From Adlercreutzia hattorii (lineage in GTDB: Bacteria > Actinomycetota > Coriobacteriia > Coriobacteriales > Eggerthellaceae), in contig NZ_AP022829.1 of assembly GCF_011405655.1 (NCBI RefSeq), positions 791,001 to 855,000 of the forward strand: a stretch of 64,000 bases of DNA. The letters run 5' to 3'. How positions within the stretch are numbered: the first letter of the stretch is position 1; every line of letters begins with the position of its first letter. The notes under the pieces were generated by a model. It worked only from the letters and a program-made list of their open reading frames with translations, did not search any database and was not told the origin of the DNA. This document shows, piece after piece, positions 9,582 through 45,662 of the stretch. The position numbers and the translations under genes are program-made.

Positions 9582-9599
9582 AGGCTCCTCCAAAAAATC

Positions 9600-9673
9600 T
9601 TTCGATTGCGAAATATTATCACGGAATTAGTAATTCTAGAAAAATCTTTCGAAATCGAAATATTTTTCTAGAA
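9600..9673. promoter_or_regulatory. Two TTTCG-type palindromes and a 12-bp inverted repeat upstream of the HipA-like gene
   Basis: Box 1, TTTCGATTGCGAAA (9600-9613), and box 2, TTTCGAAATCGAAA (9647-9660), are related dyads 47 bp apart. Each sits in the context AAATCTTTCG...CGAAATATT. Box 2 is enclosed by a perfect 12-bp inverted repeat (TTCTAGAAAAAT at 9634-9645, complement at 9662-9673), which also contains the stop codon of the transporter gene and could act as its terminator. The region is strikingly AT-rich for this genome. Binding by the HipA-like protein's own domain is inferred. Confidence 0.6.
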
Positions 9674-12075: not shown

Positions 12076-12242
12076 GAGGTTCCTCGATTCTTTTGGGGTG
12101 TTTCCGACGCTACTGCTCATTGCGCGCCTTCAAGTTTTACGCACTTGCTTTCTCGTTACCCTAAACCTTCGAGTAAGCTCAAAGTCAAGGCACAATTGCG
12201 AGAGCGAAGAAGTTTCTGCCGGTCGTTGAATCCCCCTGTTTT

Positions 12243-12430
12243 TGCATGAGATTGACGGTTATGAGCGTCTGGTTCTCGCGCGAAGGAGTTCAGCGCGAAA
12301 GGCCCTTGGCAAAACTCCAGGTCAACAGACTGTATGTGATACGGCTCTTTCAAATCCGTATTCGGTTAGCGCCCCCAGACGCTCATAACCGGTGATTTGC
12401 TGCAATTTCGAGGTGGTTCGTCGACCGAGA
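12243..12430. repeat. Palindromic intergenic element, family A, copy 2
   Basis: The left arm starts TTTGCATGAGAT at 12241; its 17-bp core at 12256-12272 (CGGTTATGAGCGTCTGG) is perfectly inverted at 12375-12391. Arms end with TGCA at 12404, giving about 162 bp. Homology with copy 1 continues to GGTTCGTCGACCGAGA at about 12414-12429. Orientation is the same as copy 1. Confidence 0.7.
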
Positions 12431-32564: not shown

Positions 32565-33041
32565 CTACAGCTTCACGACGGTGTCAGTGGGGCCGGATTC
32601 GGTGGCGCTTACGAGAACGGTGGCCGAGGGGGAGGCGACATCGCCGGTGCACAGGGCGTAGAGGCCCGGACGGTTCACGGTGACGGCGCCGAGCTCGTCG
32701 GCGGACAGCGTGCGGTCGCGGGAGGGAACGACGGTGCCGTCCTCAGCCACAGCGGCGGTGCAGAGGTAGACTTCGTCGGCGCCGCTTTCCACGGCGAAGG
32801 TGAGGCCCGTTTCCGTGGCGCTGGCGGAGCCCGTGCCCTCCACGGCGGCGCGGCCGTCGCTATGGCAGGAGGCGCATTGCTCGCCGGATTTCGTGATGGG
32901 ATGGTTTGATGCGCAGCCGACCAGGGCGAGGGCGCTCATGGTTAAGAGGGCGGCGAGGGCGAGTGCGGCGAAGCGCCTGCGCTGGCGATGCGAATGCGTG
33001 GTAGTGCCGGTACTGGTACAGGGTGAGGCGAAAAGGCCCAT
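32565..33041 (-). CDS. Small lipoprotein with one CxxCH heme-c motif
   Basis: A 158-residue precursor: a signal peptide with lipobox LVGC at about 40-43, then SNHPITKSGEQCASCHSDGR, which has a single CASCH heme-attachment motif, followed by a Thr/Ser/Val-rich beta domain without further hemes. The Tat/Sec choice is unclear; there is no RR motif, so Sec is likely, as for c-type cytochromes. An anchored monoheme protein could pass electrons to outside reductases such as the five flavoproteins in this window, but it is not linked to any of them. GAGGAGGAC precedes ATG 33041. The heme motif is clear; function is inferred. Confidence 0.75.
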   Translation of the reverse strand: MGLFASPCTSTGTTTHSHRQRRRFAALALAALLTMSALALVGCASNHPITKSGEQCASCHSDGRAAVEGTGSASATETGLTFAVESGADEVYLCTAAVAEDGTVVPSRDRTLSADELGAVTVNRPGLYALCTGDVASPSATVLVSATESGPTDTVVKL

Positions 33042-33268
33042 GAGTCCTCCTCGGGATGGGGCGGCGGATGCGGTTTCGCGTTCTTCGTGTCGCGTCCATC
33101 ATACTCAGAGCTGCTACCCGAGTAAGTTGCAAGCAGAGAATCCGGCAAGTTTTTCGAGGTTACCGACATGCCTTAGGGAGTCGCAAGGCCTTGCGCTTAC
33201 CCCGCACTGCGAACAGACAAGTTGTGGTAACCTCAAGTGTTCGCATTCGGCAATTGAAAGGAGGCGCG

Positions 33269-36200
33269 GTGGGTCTGGGCGGTATCAAGTTGGCCGATTA
33301 CGCCGATCCGCGGGCGGTGTCGCGGGGCGTAGGGCTGGCGGCCAGCGCAAAGGCGGTTGCGGATCGCACCGTACGGCGCGATGACGATACGACGATCATC
33401 TCGGCCCAGGTCGCCTCAGCGTCGGGCATTGCCGATTACTTTGAGACGTCGGTGATGTTCGGCGACTTCGAGTCGCGCATCGTCGATTACGAATGCACCT
33501 GCCCCGCCATTGCCCGCTTCGACGGGCTGTGCAAGCACTGCGTGGCCCTGGTAACGACCTACTTCACCCAGCCCCGCAGCTTTCGCGACGTTGGGGCGAA
33601 TCGCGCGGCGTCTCGCAGCCAGCGCACGACGAGTGAGGCGCTGGCCCGCTGCCTCGCCCAAGGCGCGACGGCGCCTGCAGGCGCAGCATCGCGCGGAGCG
33701 GGATTGCCCGTCTTGGGCGTGGCGCCCGGCAGTGTTCATTTGACGCCGCACCTTGCCTTCGACGGGCGTCTCTGGTCGCTGCGGCTCGATGCGGAAGGCC
33801 CGCAGGGCACTTACGTGGTGCGCGACCTTGAGGCCTTAGCCCATCGCGTGCAGCGTGGGGAGTACTTCTCCTACGGGAAGAAGCTCGCCTTTGCCCATCG
33901 GCTCGAGGCCTTCGACGGGCCTTCCCGCGCCGTGGCCCGCACGCTGGCCGAGGTGTTTCCCGATGAGCGCTTGTTCGGCGGCTCCACGTTCCGAGCCGCC
34001 GCCGGGAAGCGCGAGGTGCGCCTGCGAGAGGCGGAGCTGGCCGATATGCTCGATGCCATGGGGGAGCGCGCCTCGTTCATCCTTGAGCGAAGCGATGGCG
34101 GCGCTGCCGCTCCGGCTCCGACGCCGTGGACCATCGCGGAGGACATCCCCACTGCATCTCTTGAGTTCCTTCCCTCCGAAGGCGGTTACGACCTGCGTCT
34201 TTCCAAGGAGGTGCTGGTGGTGCGCGGGCTCGAAGTGGCCTTCGTGCTGGCCGACGGCATAGCTGCGCGGACGACAGGTGCCGATGCGCGCGCTTTCTCG
34301 TTTCTGCGGGATGCGGAACTCGACGCGGGTCGGGCGGCCTTTGTGGCTGAGCGCGATGCCGAGGCATTCTGCCGGCGCGCGCTGCCCGTGCTGGAGGAGA
34401 CGCTTGCGGTGGATCTGCCCGAGGCGTGGGAGGCGCTGCGCCCGGTGGCTGGTACGCTCGCCTTCTACTTCGACGTGACGGGTAAGAAGGAGGCTGCGCT
34501 CATCCGCCTCACGGCGAAGGCCTTTTACGGCGAGCGGGAAGTGGTGTTGGAAAGCCCTGCCGATTCTGCTGAGGAGCCGGAGTTGCGGCCGGCCTCGAGC
34601 CAGGCCTTCCGCGATCAGGACCTGGAGGATGCGGGCGTGGCCGTGGCCGCGCAGTTCTTCGATGGCTCGTGCACGCTGCCCCTGCGCCAGACCGAGCTGG
34701 CCGGCGAGCTGCTCTATGGCGGCCTGGCGCAATTTCGGGCCGTCGGCGAGGTGTTCACCACGCCCGCCTTCGACCGCCTCATCATGGAACGGCCGCCGCG
34801 GGTGTCGCTGGGTCTTTCCCTGCGCGCGAACCTCATCCAGATGGATGTGCGCGAGAGCGACCTTTCCGCCGACGAGCTGCGAGCGATGCTTTCCGCTTAT
34901 CGGCGCCGCAGGCGCTTCCATCGCCTGAGCGACGGGCGCATCGCCGCTCTGGGAGAGGGGGATGTGGCGGCACTCGGCGATATGATGCGCGATTTGGGCG
35001 TGTCGGCCGACGCGTTGCTGGACGGTGGTGCCGAGCTGCCAACCTATCAGGCGTTCTACCTAGATCGGGAGTATGGCGATGCCGTGCGCGACCGCGCCTT
35101 CGAAGACTACCTGCGTTGTCTGGACGGGTCGCCCGCGCCTGCGGAGGCGCCCGCTTCCCTTGCGGGTACGTTGCGGCCCTACCAGGTGGAGGGCTTCCGC
35201 TGGCTGGCGCGTCTGGCATCGCTCGGTTTCGGCGGCATCCTGGCCGATGAGATGGGTCTCGGCAAGACGTTGCAGATGATAGCCCTGGTGAAGAGCTTGC
35301 GTGACGCCGAGCGGCTGGCCGGCCCCGTGCTCGTGGTCTGCCCCGCCTCCCTCGTGTTCAACTGGGCCGACGAGTTCGCCCGCTTCGCTCCCGATGTGTC
35401 GGTGATCGCTCTGGAGGGATCTCGCGCGCACCGCGAGGCGCTGCTGGCCCGTGCGAGCGGCGAGCCCTGCGTGGTCGTGGCCTCCTACGATCGCGTGCGC
35501 ATCGATGGCGCGCAGCTCGCCCGCATCGATTGGGGCATGGTGGTGCTCGACGAGGCCCAGTACATCAAGAACCACGCCACCAAGACCACCCGCGCCGTGA
35601 AGCGCCTGCGCTCCCGTTTGCGGTTCGCGCTCACGGGTACGCCGGTGGAGAACCGCCTCTCGGAGCTCTGGAGCATCTTCGACTTCCTCATGCCCGGGTT
35701 CCTCGGCAGCTACGAGCGGTTCCGCGAGCGCTACGAGCTGGGCATTATCGGCGAGGACGAAGAGGCGGCCGCGCGGCTGCGCGCGCTCATCGAGCCGTTT
35801 GTGCTGCGTCGCCGCAAAGCCGACGTGCTCACCGATTTGCCCGCCAAGTTCGAGGGTATCCGCTATGTGCCCCTTTCCCGCGAGCAGCGGCGGCTCTACG
35901 ACGGCGCCGAGCAACGCTTGCGCGAGGATTTGAACGTCCAGAAGCGTCAGAACGCCTCGCGGGCCAATCGTCGCGGGCATATTCCCGATGCCGAGAAGAG
36001 TGCTGTCGAGGTGCTGGCTGAGCTGACGCGCCTACGCCAGATCGCGCTGGATCCCTCGCTCGTGTTCGAGAACTACAAGGGCGGCGCCGAGAAGCTGGGC
36101 GCCATCATGGAATTGGTGGACGAGGCAATGGAAGCTGGGCGCAAGGTGCTCGTATTCTCGCAGTTCACGAGTTATCTGGACGTGCTTTCCGCCGAACTCG

Positions 36201-36607
36201 ATCGCCGTGGTATCGCGCACTTCACTATAACGGGCGCTACGCCCAAGCGCGAGCGTGTGCGGCTGGTGAACCAGTTCAACGACGATGAGACGCCGGTGTT
36301 CCTCGTGTCGCTGAAGGCCGGCGGCACGGGGCTCAACCTCACCGGTGCCTCGGTGGTGGTGCATGCCGACCCGTGGTGGAACGCCGCCGCCACCGATCAG
36401 GCGACCGACCGCGCCCATCGCATCGGGCAGAGCCGCGAGGTGGACGTGTACAAAGTGGTGGCCAAGGGCACCATCGAGGAGCGCATCGTGGCCCTTCAGG
36501 AGGCCAAGCGCGACCTGGCCGATTCCGTGATCGCCGCAACAAACGGCGAGGCGCTCGCCGGACTTACCCGCGAGCGCCTCGCAGAGCTTCTCGGGGAGGC
36601 GGACTAG
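33269..36607 (+). CDS. SWIM zinc finger / SNF2-family helicase
   Basis: This is a 1112-residue protein. A SWIM zinc finger (CTCPAIARFDGLCKHC, about 75-92) comes first, then a long bacterial SNF2 N-terminal region. The Snf2 motor carries LADEMGLGKTLQ (about 660), DEAQYIKN (about 761), LTGTPVENRLSELWSIFDFL, and the helicase C-domain VFSQFTSYLDVL...LVSLKAGGTGLNLT...ATDQATDRAHRIGQ. Bacterial relatives (RapA-distant, HepA-like) translocate on DNA and may remodel protein-DNA complexes. The start GTG 33269 has GAAAGGAGG five bases upstream; frame-open sequence before it is not supported. Repeat B1 begins right after its stop codon. Confidence 0.88.
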   Translation: MGLGGIKLADYADPRAVSRGVGLAASAKAVADRTVRRDDDTTIISAQVASASGIADYFETSVMFGDFESRIVDYECTCPAIARFDGLCKHCVALVTTYFTQPRSFRDVGANRAASRSQRTTSEALARCLAQGATAPAGAASRGAGLPVLGVAPGSVHLTPHLAFDGRLWSLRLDAEGPQGTYVVRDLEALAHRVQRGEYFSYGKKLAFAHRLEAFDGPSRAVARTLAEVFPDERLFGGSTFRAAAGKREVRLREAELADMLDAMGERASFILERSDGGAAAPAPTPWTIAEDIPTASLEFLPSEGGYDLRLSKEVLVVRGLEVAFVLADGIAARTTGADARAFSFLRDAELDAGRAAFVAERDAEAFCRRALPVLEETLAVDLPEAWEALRPVAGTLAFYFDVTGKKEAALIRLTAKAFYGEREVVLESPADSAEEPELRPASSQAFRDQDLEDAGVAVAAQFFDGSCTLPLRQTELAGELLYGGLAQFRAVGEVFTTPAFDRLIMERPPRVSLGLSLRANLIQMDVRESDLSADELRAMLSAYRRRRRFHRLSDGRIAALGEGDVAALGDMMRDLGVSADALLDGGAELPTYQAFYLDREYGDAVRDRAFEDYLRCLDGSPAPAEAPASLAGTLRPYQVEGFRWLARLASLGFGGILADEMGLGKTLQMIALVKSLRDAERLAGPVLVVCPASLVFNWADEFARFAPDVSVIALEGSRAHREALLARASGEPCVVVASYDRVRIDGAQLARIDWGMVVLDEAQYIKNHATKTTRAVKRLRSRLRFALTGTPVENRLSELWSIFDFLMPGFLGSYERFRERYELGIIGEDEEAAARLRALIEPFVLRRRKADVLTDLPAKFEGIRYVPLSREQRRLYDGAEQRLREDLNVQKRQNASRANRRGHIPDAEKSAVEVLAELTRLRQIALDPSLVFENYKGGAEKLGAIMELVDEAMEAGRKVLVFSQFTSYLDVLSAELDRRGIAHFTITGATPKRERVRLVNQFNDDETPVFLVSLKAGGTGLNLTGASVVVHADPWWNAAATDQATDRAHRIGQSREVDVYKVVAKGTIEERIVALQEAKRDLADSVIAATNGEALAGLTRERLAELLGEAD

Positions 36608-36755
36608 CGGGTTTCGTGCAAGATTTTGCGTTTTTGCGATATCGCCATCCTGCCAAGTGCGGTATTTCGCGTTTTTGCGACACCAATTACCCCCGCAGTG
36701 ACGTCCAGAGTCGCAAAAACGCGAAATATTGCACGCTATGTGGCTCTCGGGCGTC
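36608..36755. repeat. Palindromic intergenic element, family B, copy 1
   Basis: Starts CGGGTT and the left arm GTGCAAGATTTTGCG (36616-36639). An internal repeat of the arm lies at 36657-36682 (GTGCGGTATTTCGCG...). The inverted right arm is at 36711-36734, and a conserved flank TATGTGGCTCTCGG ends at CGTC. The arm-to-arm length is 119 bp. By eye about four of five positions match copy 2 at 39433, in the same orientation. Confidence 0.75.
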
Positions 36756-36850
36756 CGGTTGTTGTTCGACGGGAGCATTTGGCTTCGCGATGCTTTGGCT
36801 GCATTGGCGCCCTTTCACGGTTCGAGCGTTCGCGCGGTAAAAGCAGAAGA

Positions 36851-36868
36851 GGCGGCCCGAAGACCGCC
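36851..36868 (-). terminator. Terminator of flavoprotein 2
   Basis: On the minus strand: GGCGGTC, TTCG tetraloop, GGCCGCC, then TCTTCTGCTTTT. It lies about 46 bases past the stop codon. Confidence 0.6.
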
Positions 36869-36914
36869 CCGTGCATGAGAAATACCCCCGTCCGCTCAGT
36901 GTGCGCCGAAACGC

Positions 36915-38507
36915 TTACTTTTGGGCGGCAGCTGCTTCCGCTGCCAAACGCCCCGAAGTGGCCGCCCAGCCCTGTTGAGAACCGGAGCACACATCTACAT
37001 CGTAGTTGGCGCCGTACAGTCCTGCCGCGTCGCCGCCGGCAGCGAACAGCCCTTCAATGGGGGAGCCGTCGGTGCCCATTACTTGCATGCGGTCGTTTAC
37101 GCGCAAGCCGCCCACGGTGGTAAAGAGCGTCGGCGTGATGCGGGCGCCGTAGAAGGGCGGGGTGGATACGGGCAGCAGCATATTCGCAGGCAGCCCGTAA
37201 TCCTCATCAGCGCCTGCGGCGCAGAATCCGTTGAAGCGCTCTACCGTTGCGGCGAGCGTGGCGCTGTCCAGCCCGAGGGCACGTGCCAGTTCCTCGATGC
37301 TGTCGGCCTGCACAAGTCCCTCGCATGTGAGCAGACCCTCGCGACACGCATAGGGCTGTCCCGCAAAGGCGCCGAGGTTCGGCATGGGCATCCAGGGACC
37401 TGCGGTCTCGATATGGTCGATGAACGCGTCGTCGAAAATGGCGAAATTGGCCGCATTGGTGGTCAGCACATTGCCCACAGCGGTGAAATCGCTGGTGGCG
37501 GCCTCATTGAAGTAACGGATGCCCGCCTCGTTCACGCGCATGGTGGGTTGCATGGTCACGATGTAGTTGGGAATATCCGAGAACGCGCTCGTGCCGTCCA
37601 GCATGCCCGTGTGCCACATGACGGCTTCGGGGTGATGGGTGTCGGCTCCCGCCTCAGCGACGGCATGGGCGATGCCGTCGCCGTCGCGGCCCTCCATGCC
37701 CCATACGTGCACGTTTGCATAGGGGCGACCTGTGAACTTCTCGAACATCCCCTGATTGTTCGCGTAGCCGCCGCTTGCCAGAATAACGGCTCGGCTTTCG
37801 ATGAGAATCTCTCCGTCGGAACCCTCGGCGTAAACGCCCGTAACGCATCCGTCCTCTACGCGCAGCCCGGTGAAGGGGGTTGAAATGCGGAACTGCACGC
37901 CGAGCTCCTCCGCGGCCGGCTGAATGACGGAAAGTACGTCGCCAACATGAGTGGGCATGCCGCTTTCGTCGGCTGGAAGATGCCATACTTGGTAAGAATC
38001 GCCGAGGGCCGCGATGGAGGCCCAGGCAGTCCCATGATCCTCGAGCCAATCGATGGTGGCGCCGCTGTTGTCGGCGAAAGCGCGCACCACCGGTCCCAGG
38101 CATCCGTAATGGTGATAGGCGAGCGTGTCGGCCACGACTGCATTCGGATCGACGGTGATGTTCTGGGCCGCCTGGGCTTTCGACCCGATGCCGCAAAAGC
38201 CCTCTGCTACGGCCGAAGTGCCTCCCAAGCCGCTGTTCTTCTCGAGGCAAATGACGGAAAGCCCCAGCTCGGCAGCGCGACAGGCTGCCACGGTGCCCGC
38301 TGTTCCCGAGCCTACAATTACGACATCGGCCTGCTCCGTCGAAATGGGGTTGTGAGTTGGAGCCTCTTGATTTGCGCCGGTGCCGGCCAAAGTGCCCTGA
38401 TCTGCCGATGCCTCCGTTGAAGACGGCGCGCAGCCGGCGAGTCCCGCCAACGCCGCCCCTCCGGCGCAGAGTGCTCCCGCGAAAAACGAACGACGTGATA
38501 GATCCAT
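36915..38507 (-). CDS. Tat-exported lipoprotein flavoprotein, fumarate-reductase-like (flavoprotein 2)
   Basis: A 530-residue protein with Tat motif SRRSFF (4-9), lipobox LAGC at Cys26, FAD motif GSGTAG (66-71), and EKNSGLGGTSAVAEGFCG. The family segment is VNEAGIRYFNEAATSDF, with Tyr where Phe is usual. C-terminal GLFAAGGDAAGLYGANYDVDVCSG closes the FAD site. The end differs clearly from the GNCSGSxxxGxYPE type of the other flavoproteins here, so its substrate is probably of another kind. AAGGAG precedes ATG 38507. It is divergent from a TetR gene; two perfect operators separate them. The pair lies between direct repeats B1 and B2, as a possible mobile module. Confidence 0.9.
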   Translation of the reverse strand: MDLSRRSFFAGALCAGGAALAGLAGCAPSSTEASADQGTLAGTGANQEAPTHNPISTEQADVVIVGSGTAGTVAACRAAELGLSVICLEKNSGLGGTSAVAEGFCGIGSKAQAAQNITVDPNAVVADTLAYHHYGCLGPVVRAFADNSGATIDWLEDHGTAWASIAALGDSYQVWHLPADESGMPTHVGDVLSVIQPAAEELGVQFRISTPFTGLRVEDGCVTGVYAEGSDGEILIESRAVILASGGYANNQGMFEKFTGRPYANVHVWGMEGRDGDGIAHAVAEAGADTHHPEAVMWHTGMLDGTSAFSDIPNYIVTMQPTMRVNEAGIRYFNEAATSDFTAVGNVLTTNAANFAIFDDAFIDHIETAGPWMPMPNLGAFAGQPYACREGLLTCEGLVQADSIEELARALGLDSATLAATVERFNGFCAAGADEDYGLPANMLLPVSTPPFYGARITPTLFTTVGGLRVNDRMQVMGTDGSPIEGLFAAGGDAAGLYGANYDVDVCSGSQQGWAATSGRLAAEAAAAQK

Positions 38508-38530
38508 GATCCGCTCCTTCCCTGAAGTTG

Positions 38531-38580
38531 TTGGTACACCGTACCAAATGATGGCATCATCATATGGTACGGTGTACCAA
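38531..38580. promoter_or_regulatory. Twin TetR operators between flavoprotein 2 and tetR
   Basis: Site 1 TTGGTACACCGTACCAA (38531-38547) is a perfect dyad with a 3-base centre. Site 2 (38564-38580) is the same site on the opposite strand with one end base changed. Centres are 33 bp apart, about three helical turns, so both dimers face the same side. A -10 TATAAT for tetR follows at 38593-38598, placing site 2 over its -35. Confidence 0.9.
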
Positions 38581-38623
38581 CTTGTCAAGGGGTATAATTT
38601 ACCCGACCAGAGAAAGGCGGCCC

Positions 38624-39262
38624 ATGTCCCGTGCAAAGAACAGCGCTCCCCGAACCGTGCTCACCAATGACGAGTTGGCCCGTGCGGCTCTCGCCCTCAT
38701 CGATGAAGAGGGGGTGGAGGCCTTCTCGTTCCGCAAGTTGAGCGCGGTGACCGGTGTTCCCACTATGACCATCGCCAATCGCTTCGGCAGCAAGGACGCC
38801 CTCATGAAAGCGGCGCTCGGCGAAATGCTTGCCGAGAACAAAATCGAGCCGGTAACGGGAGAAACATGGCAGCAGTCGTTGCGCCGCGTGGCCCATGCGA
38901 ACCGCTCTATGGCGCTGGCGCACCCCAAAGCTTTCATGCTGTTCGTCATGACTCCCCAGTTTGAGTCGCCGTCGCTGGAATTCACCCGATCGGTTTTTGC
39001 CACTCATGAGAGCGATACGCTGCCGGCCCATATGCCCGAGTATTTCTTGTCGCTCATGCATTCGTTCCTGACGGGTTTTCAGCTGCAGGAAATGTATGTG
39101 AATGAGCATTACAGCGGCAACGTTCCGGTGGCTGACGGAGAAAGCGGCGACCGTCAAAGAATGGCTCGCATGATCGCGGGCCTTTATGACGAAGATGCCT
39201 TTAATCGCAACTTGGAGATCATCATTGCTGGTTTTGCTGCTTGCTTCGATTTGCCCTCCTGA
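38624..39262 (+). CDS. TetR/AcrR-family repressor
   Basis: A 212-residue regulator: N-terminal helix-turn-helix (about 12-60: VLTNDELARAALALIDEEGVEAFSFRKLSAVTGVPTMTIANRFGSKDALMKAAL) and a helical ligand domain ending NLEIIIAGFAACFDLPS. It most resembles the TetR_C-type regulators of catabolic and efflux genes. The ATG at 38624 has AAAGG upstream. It is divergent from flavoprotein 2 with a 116-base shared control region holding two perfect operators, so repression of both genes and relief by the flavoprotein's substrate is the simplest model. Confidence 0.9.
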   Translation: MSRAKNSAPRTVLTNDELARAALALIDEEGVEAFSFRKLSAVTGVPTMTIANRFGSKDALMKAALGEMLAENKIEPVTGETWQQSLRRVAHANRSMALAHPKAFMLFVMTPQFESPSLEFTRSVFATHESDTLPAHMPEYFLSLMHSFLTGFQLQEMYVNEHYSGNVPVADGESGDRQRMARMIAGLYDEDAFNRNLEIIIAGFAACFDLPS

Positions 39263-39432
39263 GGTTGCCAAAACGTACTGACGCCTTTCAGGATGCTAGG
39301 TACGACCTCATGCTTCCTCGGCGCCACCGCCAACAGGAGCGCTCTAGCCGAGGCTGCCCGCGCGTCTGTTCCACCTTACGGGGAAGGGCGAGCTTCTGGG
39401 GGAGGACGGTGCCTCAAGGGGAGGGTGAGCAA

Positions 39433-39579
39433 CGGGTTCCATGCAGGATTTTGCGTTTTCGCGACATCGACGTCTTGTGGAGTGCGGTATTTTGCGTTTT
39501 CGCGACATCGGTTGCCCCGCAGTGATTCCCCAAGTCGCAAAAACGCAAAATCCTGCATGTTATGTGCCTCTCGGACGTC
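39433..39579. repeat. Palindromic intergenic element, family B, copy 2
   Basis: CGGGTT, left arm (39440-39467, starts CATGCAGGATTTTGCG), internal arm copy (39482-39508) and right arm (39535-39559). The outer arms match over about 24 bases with one C/T difference; arm-to-arm 120 bp. The flank TATGTGCCTCTCGGACGTC is shared with copy 1. Bases 39263-39432 and 39580-39717 show no gene. Confidence 0.75.
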
Positions 39580-39771: not shown

Positions 39772-41247
39772 CTACTTGCGCTTGTCCTCCTCTACGAGGG
39801 CGTTCATGGCGGCGCGCTCCTGGTCTTCCAGGCGCTCCTCGGCCGCGTCCAGCGCGCGCTTGTCGTGCTTGGCGTTGGCGATGGCGAGCACCGCGCCGGA
39901 CAGCGCGAACAGCGCGATGGCGTTGGGGATGACCATCAGCTGGTTGAACATGTCGGCGAGCTCCCACACCAGGTCGTTGGACAGAAGCGACCCCATGAAG
40001 ATGAACACGAGCGCGATGATGGTGAAGGGCAGCACGGCGCGCTTTCCGAAGAGCCACTCCACGTTCAGCTTAGCGAACAGGTTCCACGAGAGGATGGTGG
40101 AGAAGGCGAAGAACAAAAGGCAGATGGCCACGAACCACGCGCCCACGTTCGCGCCGAAGAACTGCCCGAAGGCCAGCTGGGCGATGTTGGTCTTGGTGAT
40201 GGTCTCGGCGGTGAGCGTCGCGTAGTCGCCGGTGGCCAGCGTACCGTCGCCCACGTAGAGCACCGACAGCACCACGAGCGCGGTCATGGTGACGACGATG
40301 ATGGTGTCCACGAACACACCGATCATGGCCACGACGCCCTGCTCGTGCGGATCCTTCACCTCGGCTAGCGCGTGGGCGTGCGGGGTGGAGCCCATGCCGG
40401 CCTCGTTGGAGAACAGGCCGCGCTTGGCGCCCTGGCTGATGGCGGCGATGATACCGAAAGTGGCACCGCCCACGGTGGCGTCGGGGTTGAAGGCGCACTG
40501 GAAGATGAGCGCGAAGGTGGCCGGGATGTTGGCGGCGTTCATGATGAGCACGACAAGCGACCCGAGCACGTAGAGGATGGCCATGACGGGCACGATCTTC
40601 TCGGTGACGGCGGCCAGACGGGACACGCCGCCGATGAACACGGTGCCAGCCAGAATGACCACGATAAGCCCCATGACCCAGGTGGGGATGCCGAAGGCGG
40701 TGTTCATGGTCTCGGCGATGGAGTTCGACTGCACCATGCAGCCCATGAAGCCGAGCGCCAGAATGATGGCCACGGCGAAGAACCCGGCGAGGAACTTGCC
40801 CCCGTTGCCCTTGAAGGCCGTGGTGATGTAGTAGACCGGGCCGCCGTGCACGGTGCCGTCCTCGTCGACTACGCGGGTCTTCTGGGCCATGACCGCCTCG
40901 GCGTAGTTGGTGGCCATGCCGAGCAGGGCGATGATCCACATCCAGAAGATGGCGCCCGGGCCGCCCACGATGATGGCGCCGCACGCGCCCACGATGTTGC
41001 CCGTGCCCACCTGGGCCGCGATAGCGGTGGACAGCGCTTGGAACGACGTCATGCCGCCGCCCTGGTTGCCGCCGCGCAGGCTGAAGTTGCCGAACACGCG
41101 GCGCCAGCCTTCGCCGAAGCAACGGAACTGGATCGCCTTGGTGCGCACGGTGAACCAGATGCCCATGCCGAGCAGCAGGATGATCAGGATGTAGTTGGAC
41201 AGGTAGTTGTTGATGGTGGTAACGATACCAAGTAGCGCCTCTTCCAC
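39772..41247 (-). CDS. Sodium:alanine/glycine symporter (AGCS family)
   Basis: A 491-residue transporter with about eleven helices and the AGCS landmarks: QFRCFGEGWRRVFG, SFQALSTAIAAQVGTGNIVGACGAIIVGGPGAIFWMW, and the family signature GLFSNEAGMGSTPHAHA (about 270-286). It imports alanine or glycine with Na+. The upstream glycine riboswitch argues strongly that glycine is the physiological substrate. The GTG start at 41247 follows AAGAAGGGAA; the frame upstream is riboswitch RNA, not protein. It is monocistronic with a terminator at 39718. Confidence 0.92.
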   Translation of the reverse strand: MEEALLGIVTTINNYLSNYILIILLLGMGIWFTVRTKAIQFRCFGEGWRRVFGNFSLRGGNQGGGMTSFQALSTAIAAQVGTGNIVGACGAIIVGGPGAIFWMWIIALLGMATNYAEAVMAQKTRVVDEDGTVHGGPVYYITTAFKGNGGKFLAGFFAVAIILALGFMGCMVQSNSIAETMNTAFGIPTWVMGLIVVILAGTVFIGGVSRLAAVTEKIVPVMAILYVLGSLVVLIMNAANIPATFALIFQCAFNPDATVGGATFGIIAAISQGAKRGLFSNEAGMGSTPHAHALAEVKDPHEQGVVAMIGVFVDTIIVVTMTALVVLSVLYVGDGTLATGDYATLTAETITKTNIAQLAFGQFFGANVGAWFVAICLLFFAFSTILSWNLFAKLNVEWLFGKRAVLPFTIIALVFIFMGSLLSNDLVWELADMFNQLMVIPNAIALFALSGAVLAIANAKHDKRALDAAEERLEDQERAAMNALVEEDKRK

Positions 41248-41318
41248 GGCATTCCCTTCTTCTCGCGAGAAGACTCGGGGGAACTCATGCGTGGGCGGCC
41301 GAAGAAGTCGCGTCATCG

Positions 41319-41417
41319 CTCTGTCCGTTTGCCTGAGAGATTCAGCTTGCCTGCGGAGGTCGTCCGCGCGCACGCCTTGCACCTTCGGCACTCACTTAAG
41401 AGTTCTCCAGAGTTTTC
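41319..41417 (-). ncRNA. Glycine riboswitch (one aptamer visible)
   Basis: On the minus strand: CTCTGGAGAACTC, GTGCCGAAGGTGCAAGG, a variable arm, then CTCTCAGGCAAACGGACAGAG, the hallmark order of the glycine aptamer core. It ends 72 bases before the symporter start codon. I cannot find a second full aptamer on its 5' side, so it may be a single-aptamer version with a helper stem. Regulation of glycine uptake or efflux follows from the class. Confidence 0.88.
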
Positions 41418-41732
41418 TCCGCCCCCGGTTTGCTTATGCTGCGCTTGCGTTGCCTCGGCGCTGCGGGCAGGCCGCTTTGCCTCATCGCGCGAGCGCTTCG
41501 TGCATCCCGAAGGCCTCACAGAAATATTGACTCGGTCACTATACGCCCTGACGCGGCGTCGATCAACAACTATTTCGCTCAACGTTGCGCGTTGCCCCCG
41601 CAATGCTCCGTGGAGCCCGCGAAAGGCGGTGTCCGTGCAGTGGTTGCGGGATGACTACGAATGGGATTCGGCCGCGGCACCCGTGCTAGACTGGGGCGAC
41701 GAAAGCGACAAAAGCCAAGGAAAGAGATCGCC

Positions 41733-45357: not shown

Positions 45358-45477
45358 TGCACGAGATTGCCGTTTATGAGCGTCAAGGGGGGTGGCAGTC
45401 GCTCGGTTTTATCGAATGCCGCTAGTTCTGCTGATTTCTCTTGCGTCCAGGGCGCTCATAACCGTCGATTTCGTGCA
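45358..45477. repeat. Palindromic intergenic element, family A, copy 3
   Basis: Left arm TGCACGAGATTGCCGTTTAT (from 45358, continuing GAGCGTC to 45384) and right arm ending in CGATTTCGTGCA (45453-45477) are inverted with few mismatches, 120 bp end to end. Arms match family A at 10979 and 12243, but the interior is about 40 bp shorter. The rest of the 45262-45662 gap holds nothing recognisable. Confidence 0.65.
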
Positions 45478-45662
45478 CTAACAGTCCACTATGCTGACGG
45501 GCCGAGCAGGCGATTCTTTCGCGGTGCGCGCCTTCTGGGGGGCGGAGATCTTCTCAGCCGGCTTTAAAAAGGTTTTGAATGCCACTTATGTTTTCCTTAA
45601 CTCGATTCCTCTTGTCGTACGGACGCGGTATATTCGTCCCAGATGGCAAAGGAAGGTGAGAC

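Follow-up and report, generated by a model that had tools for sequence, protein, structure and literature searches.

A regulator-reductase cassette between two copies of an intergenic inverted-repeat element at a variable site of Adlercreutzia hattorii

The window analyzed here is a stretch of 64,000 nucleotides from the 2.9-Mb genome of Adlercreutzia hattorii (the source genome, G000). Near its middle, two direct copies of an inverted-repeat element, B1 and B2, bracket a divergent gene pair coding for a TetR-family regulator and a flavoprotein reductase, and the whole lies between genes for an SNF2-family helicase and a sodium:alanine symporter family protein (Table 1). Domain matches and repeat analysis support the initial annotation in that B1 and B2 enclose a single unit composed of the TetR gene, twin palindromes, and the flavoprotein gene, and in that no transposase lies between them, since neither enclosed protein is one. 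The best NCBIfam model for the flavoprotein is vinyl phenol reductase, where it scores 289 bits and the cut-off is 600. Three related TetR/flavoprotein modules have palindrome pairs of the GGTACANTGTACC type in the corresponding position. The layout, with a regulator gene divergent from its target gene and common palindromic operators, is that of a TetR-controlled reductase operon, for which repression is predicted.

Table 1. Coordinates and basis of assignment of the features discussed (window positions unless another genome or stretch is named)
Feature	Location	Strand	Basis or remarks
SNF2-family helicase, left neighbor of the variable site	33056..36607	+	Domain match; kept in relatives
B1	36608..36755	+	Arms 36615-36639 direct, 36657-36681 direct, 36711-36735 inverted; covariance model R3 E 1e-28 (B1 is in the model)
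FAD_binding_2 flavoprotein reductase	36915..38504	-	Domain match; twin-arginine-like start recognized by eye
Twin palindromes, GGTACACCGTACC type, probable operators	38530..38581	.	Between the divergent TetR and flavoprotein genes
TetR-family regulator (TetR_N + TetR_C_1)	38624..39262	+	Longest open reading frame from 38564; likely ATG 38624
Possible degenerate second SNF2 3' end leading into B2	39263..39432	+	Suggestive only
B2	39433..39579	+	Arms 39440-39465 direct, internal direct arm 41 bp on, 39534-39559 inverted; R3 E 2e-29 (B2 is in the model)
Sodium:alanine symporter family protein, right neighbor	39772..41295	-	Domain match; congener comparison
Third family member in the source genome, two-armed	G000:C1:2499798-2499947 (L129)		Inverted-arm distance about +3 turns
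DUF3644 protein with restriction-endonuclease-like domain, PDC-S19 defence candidate	L059 13298-14350		At the site of the redox cassette

B1 begins directly after the stop codon of the helicase gene. Its identity with B2 is 77% over 36586-36693/39411-39518 and 82% over 36691-36755/39515-39579, with 30 of the 148 aligned columns differing, which agrees with the earlier description of direct copies in the same orientation that share about four of five bases. The third, internal arm copy described for each element was also found; it is direct and, in B1 as in B2, begins 41 bp on from arm 1. The outer arms are 92% complementary in B1 and 96% in B2. Of the arm-to-arm lengths given before, 119 and 120 bp, the second holds for B2, and B1 measures 121 bp. 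The arms change less than the remainder, with 9 of 76 arm positions differing between B1 and B2 against 21 of 72 elsewhere, and the similarity extends past the arms, the left flank adding about 22 bp and the right flank 20 bp. Within the window, a 17-mer from the arm allowing up to 3 mismatches occurs at six places, all inside B1 or B2, where 0.1 would be expected. In the whole genome, the complete element was found at two places at E<=0.001, and an arm 18-mer at <=1 mismatch gave no place beyond B1 and B2; at 3 mismatches it gave three further places, the same number as the reversed control pattern.

The site was compared among the eight congeners (G001 to G008), with the helicase region retrieved from seven of them; G006, where it is on a short contig, was left out. 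A match to the SNF2 helicase is present in all nine genomes of the genus. The TetR/flavoprotein pair is found between helicase and symporter in none of the five congeners that have both neighbors; in G007 and G008, where the helicase is 42 to 44% identical, no symporter match was found within the retrieved stretch. Because it is absent in 5/5 congeners with both neighbors, the pair is an insertion at a variable helicase-symporter site. The idea that the block 36756-39432 is variable is borne out, the site being empty or otherwise filled in the relatives. Indeed, only about 0.18 kb separates the helicase and symporter genes in G005, and the site in G002 holds a gene for an MqsA-type antitoxin (Pfam E 7.7e-8) and a small upstream open reading frame without a Pfam match. 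A DUF3644 gene occupies it in G001, G003, and G004 (tested for the G001 copy and read by eye in the other two), and the G001 protein matches the defence candidate PDC-S19 with E 1e-154. The content of this helicase-adjacent locus therefore changes with the species, from a defence candidate to a gene of the antitoxin type or a redox cassette, and such a variable locus would help to explain the exchange of reductases and regulators among related bacteria.

Two minor observations concern the same neighborhood. In G003, a relative of the window gene 32565-33041 (L056 12551-12955) is flanked by the DUF3644 gene and the symporter instead of standing upstream of the helicase, which is a local rearrangement at this variable site. 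Upstream of the symporter gene of the window there is a glycine riboswitch (41311-41420, minus strand; Rfam RF00504, E 2.7e-8).

Relatives of the TetR protein with 51 to 62% identity were found in 3 of the 137 other genomes of the family (G115, G116, and G081, all of other genera), every other match being at <=35%, and each of the three stands beside a divergent flavoprotein gene whose product is 65 to 66% identical (stretches L063, L064, and L065). The congeners have no TetR closer than 31% identity anywhere in their genomes. B-like flanks were looked for around the three homologous modules, and none was found; megablast searches with the module found nothing in plasmids or phages.

The search of related genomes for the arm, which the initial annotation had proposed, gave a two-sided outcome: by sequence alone only the source genome is found among the 138 family genomes, while covariance models reveal a family of elements. 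The arm 18-mer at <=1 mismatch occurs in the source genome only among 138 genomes of the family, and in the source genome and once in G378 among 395 genomes of the order. A 17-mer from the arm matched eight viral stretches, and a degenerate pattern matched 13 genome_contigs stretches and one viral stretch, one match each and with no relative named; by our own estimate we take these matches as chance. A longer arm pattern had no match in the same collections, which may omit records near the source genome.

The covariance model built from B1 and B2 (R1) found similar structures in the congeners, and models from four and eight elements (R2 and R3) extended the set. At E<=0.01, R2 has matches in 11 of the 138 genomes of the family. 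The last search, with R3, covered 41 genomes with stricter filters and rough E-values and gave 40 loci at the cut-off of E<=1e-6, 37 of them in this genus. There are 3 loci in G000, 5 in G001, 1 in G003, 10 in G004, 14 in G005, 4 in G006, 2 in G012, and 1 in G011; G002, G007, and G008 have no R3 match at E<=0.01. The B family is thus composed of intergenic inverted repeats found mainly in this genus, usually with two direct arms and one inverted arm. Among the titles listed in our literature search, none describes such an element in this lineage, which does not prove its absence from print. A weak R3 match (E 0.026) also falls on an AT-rich part of the window (9591-9669; 25% GC).

Most elements are 116 to 122 bp long (75 to 163 bp among those read), with arms of about 24 to 26 bp. 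Between genomes, the 16 bases that precede the GCGA end of the arm have an identity of 0.54, compared with 0.26 in shuffles (37 of 38 elements read), a value that is due in part to the covariance model having selected these elements. In the outer arms of eight elements 94.4% of the pairs are standard, and 11 of 26 arm pairs have changed on both sides, which 2 of 500 shuffles reach. The interiors of non-orthologous loci align poorly, and by eye there are arm subfamilies specific to single genomes. The relatives of B are mostly solitary beside unrelated genes. Some loci look orthologous between species (G001/G004 and G004/G005; by eye). Gene names used for the neighbors (ddl-like, uvrA-like, and hypF) are what we take these genes to be by recognition. 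After the ddl-like gene, an element was seen by eye in two of nine genomes, with three arms in G005 and two in G004; none was seen in G000, G002, G006, G007, and G008, and other DNA is present in G001 and G003. After the uvrA-like gene, again by eye, G001 has an element where G000 is empty, with the same next gene. A rule by which the elements are oriented with the upstream gene fitted the first loci and failed once more loci were read.

The spacing of the arms was then considered. Inverted-arm distances were taken from 33 of the 40 loci, after dropping B2 and six apparently orthologous copies. With the same seven dropped, direct-arm spacings were taken from 23 non-redundant elements with a recognizable middle arm, which is not the case for G005:C16b, G004:C8, G006:C41, and all G011 and G012 elements; four further elements were read separately. 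The direct-arm spacing is 41 to 42 bp in 11 elements, 52 bp in 11, and 73 bp in one, and the separately read elements have 41/41, 31, 42, and 52 bp. In 22 of the 33 loci, the inverted-arm distance differs from 74.3 bp by no more than 2 bp. The other 11 distances (32, 42, 62, 64, 72, 85, 85, 106, 107, 107, and 108 bp) differ from the main class by nearly whole turns of 10.5 bp, with a mean deviation of 0.96 bp against 2.6 bp expected (p 4e-5 with loci as independent; 5e-4 on distinct lengths).

This near-whole-turn spacing suggests duplex DNA together with protein, and it speaks more for B as an element read at the DNA level, with several predicted protein-binding sites, than for an RNA hairpin. 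With such spacings the arms would face roughly the same side of the helix, and B most likely acts as duplex DNA, offering several docking sites to a DNA-binding protein, which may be of the transposase, recombinase, or architectural type. A fuller picture, possible rather than probable, is that of a lineage-restricted family with drifting sequence and a geometry held to whole turns (-4, -3, -1, 0, +1, and +3 relative to the main class), where a protein would sit on the phased sites and cassettes would insert beside them, giving rise to the bracketed module. Helical quantization of spacing in a diverging intergenic repeat, if true, would be a direct and testable sign of a DNA-protein assembly.

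The phasing is shown statistically, and several points weigh against it. The main class and its center were set from the data, many of the inverted-arm distances were derived from match length and not measured on the motif, and the p-values are too small because the loci share ancestry. The best period is not pinned, being about 10.25 for the direct arms and about 10.75 to 11 for the inverted arm. The training set of R3 already contained spacings of both 41 and 52 bp, although not the off-class inverted-arm distances. R3 matches with E between 1e-6 and 0.01 (in G004, G006, G011, G023, G037, and G048) were left out of the count, and by our arithmetic on lengths those in G048, G006:C182, and one of two places in G037 are off-phase. 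Moreover, the arms fold and covary strongly, as RNA would.

With regard to the origin of the bracketed arrangement, the incoming DNA most likely carried its own helicase 3' junction, composed of a gene end and a B element. Recombination, for instance a single crossover, would then have joined the cassette beside the resident helicase, and the result would be a directly repeated junction in the order helicase end, B1, cassette, decayed helicase end, B2. The cassette is absent from the congeners and B is duplicated; the decayed helicase end is suggestive. In an anchored alignment, the 170 bp from the TetR gene to B2 matched the helicase end of this genome with a score beaten by 36 of 2747 controls, and those of G003 and G001 with scores beaten by 11 of 897 and 20 of 888. 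The left flanks of B1 and B2 are similar as well (ungapped identity, p 0.0025 over 20 bp, 0.0009 over 25, 0.004 over 30, 0.005 over 40, and 0.04 over 60). In G002, a second SNF2 3' end follows the stop codon of the intact helicase, with a score of 55.8 against a maximum of 49 in 1522 controls. It is followed by 19 bases, 17 of which equal the opening of B1, and a B-like edge therefore adjoined the helicase in another lineage. Together with the similarity of the flanks past the arms, the G002 case favors recombination with DNA carrying a helicase junction over transposition by B.

Here too some results run counter to the proposal. The 170 bp showed no significant match to the helicase ends of G005, G002, and G004 (281 of 891, 350 of 880, and 297 of 898 controls), and a profile of six helicase ends gave 39263-39432 only E 0.41, behind three unrelated places of the window. 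A frameshift-tolerant protein test of the same segment was equalled or beaten by 147 of 1522 controls, and the right flanks show little similarity past the first 20 bp (p 0.11 global, 0.034 local). Overall, the explanation that best joins these observations, and to which we give about an even chance, is that recombination with DNA bearing a helicase junction of its own brought in the cassette and that the B family is a phased, DNA-level docking array. The interpretation in the initial annotation is supported in part: recombination at a duplicated junction is likely, but B may be no more than a part of that junction.

B could instead be transcribed as RNA hairpins, terminators or stabilizers of 3' ends with two alternative stems, in the manner of repetitive extragenic palindromic (REP) sequences and bacterial interspersed mosaic elements (BIMEs). 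The folds are strong on both strands (z -3.5 to -6.4), and the paired changes in the arms and their slower change between B1 and B2 agree with this, as does the fact that B1 and B2 lie at gene ends, like the copies that follow the ddl-like and uvrA-like genes. Single-stranded loops, however, are not expected to keep whole-turn spacing. Among 30 further loci, five were placed between divergent genes, and the orientation is mixed; the calls of open reading frames are rough, and one locus came out differently in G001 and G004. The run of T expected of an intrinsic terminator is absent after arm 3 in both B1 and B2 despite the strong stem, and no Rfam family reached its gathering score at B1 or B2, the only Rfam match in the window being the glycine riboswitch. 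REP/BIME sequences and other extragenic palindromes are short intergenic inverted repeats with covarying arms, which B resembles. Unlike them, B usually has two direct arms and one inverted arm, an arm sequence that varies between copies, and spacing near whole helical turns; where present in the genus, it has 1 to 14 loci per genome (E<=1e-6). We regard the RNA hairpins as unlikely.

Another improbable reading takes the B elements as short non-autonomous transposons of an IS21-, Tn7-, or Mu-type transposase, with left-end sites L1 and L2 and a right-end site R1. An array of one inverted site and two direct sites some four turns apart may be seen as resembling such ends, and the presence or absence of B at the conserved ddl-like and uvrA-like sites and the genome-specific arm subfamilies, all read by eye, would fit. 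According to PMC10122671, the ends of IS21 have two direct repeats 23 bp apart, and IstA needs two of them; B is similar in having two direct repeats at one end and an inverted repeat at the other, where binding is predicted. Relative to IS21 as described there, B differs in its single inverted site, the lack of a gene between the ends, the lack of a 5-bp target duplication (38 elements, k 5, p 0.93), and its variable end bases, which are TGC..GCA in some elements and CGAC..GTCG in others. Because of the variable end bases and the lack of target duplications, B was not filed under IS21/Mu/Tn7 ends. Indeed, a search of 38 elements for target-site duplications, with k 4-9 and offsets 0-8, revealed none either at the arm ends or beyond them (p 0.28-0.93); a slight excess at k 4 (p 0.067) and another at k 6 (p 0.023) fall inside the arms. 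The divergence of copies within one genome and the apparent orthology of some copies between species also argue against transposition.

The same evidence bears on a comparison with prokaryotic miniature inverted-repeat transposable elements (MITEs), as portrayed in PMC10969869. B has their size (<500 bp), their terminal inverted repeats (arms of about 25 bp), their intergenic position, and their presence or absence between species. It departs from them in its diverged copies and in its lack of target duplications (best p 0.28), which in MITEs fade with age according to that source. No matching autonomous element was seen, the source genome having no further arm copies at <=1 mismatch and no search for transposase genes having been made.

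It is very unlikely that a resolvase-like enzyme uses B1 and B2 as recombination sites, with the cassette excisable between them. Three phased sites within about 117 bp and the direct orientation of B1 and B2 resemble the compact three-site res array of Tn3-type elements, as presented in PMC9943657. In contrast to the dyad-symmetric res subsites described there, to which the direct half-sites of Sin site II are an exception, the arms of B have no consistent dyad symmetry relative to shuffles (p>=0.09 in 36 of 38 arms, p 0.017 in two; mean excess 0.39 pairs), and most elements are solitary. Least probable of all, and hardly to be expected, is the composite cassette of the initial annotation, with B elements as ends cut by a trans-acting enzyme: direct copies do bracket one functional unit missing from the congeners at this site, but the similarity runs on past the arms and does not stop where the mobile unit of a composite transposon would, target duplications are lacking, the arms are unique in the genome at <=1 mismatch, the relatives of B are mostly alone, and the homologous modules have no B-like flanks.

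Another long inverted repeat of the window, at 12220-12427, has arms of 53 nt that are 72% complementary. Part of it has an inverted copy of 32 nt, 84% complementary, at 45453-45484, 33 kb away.

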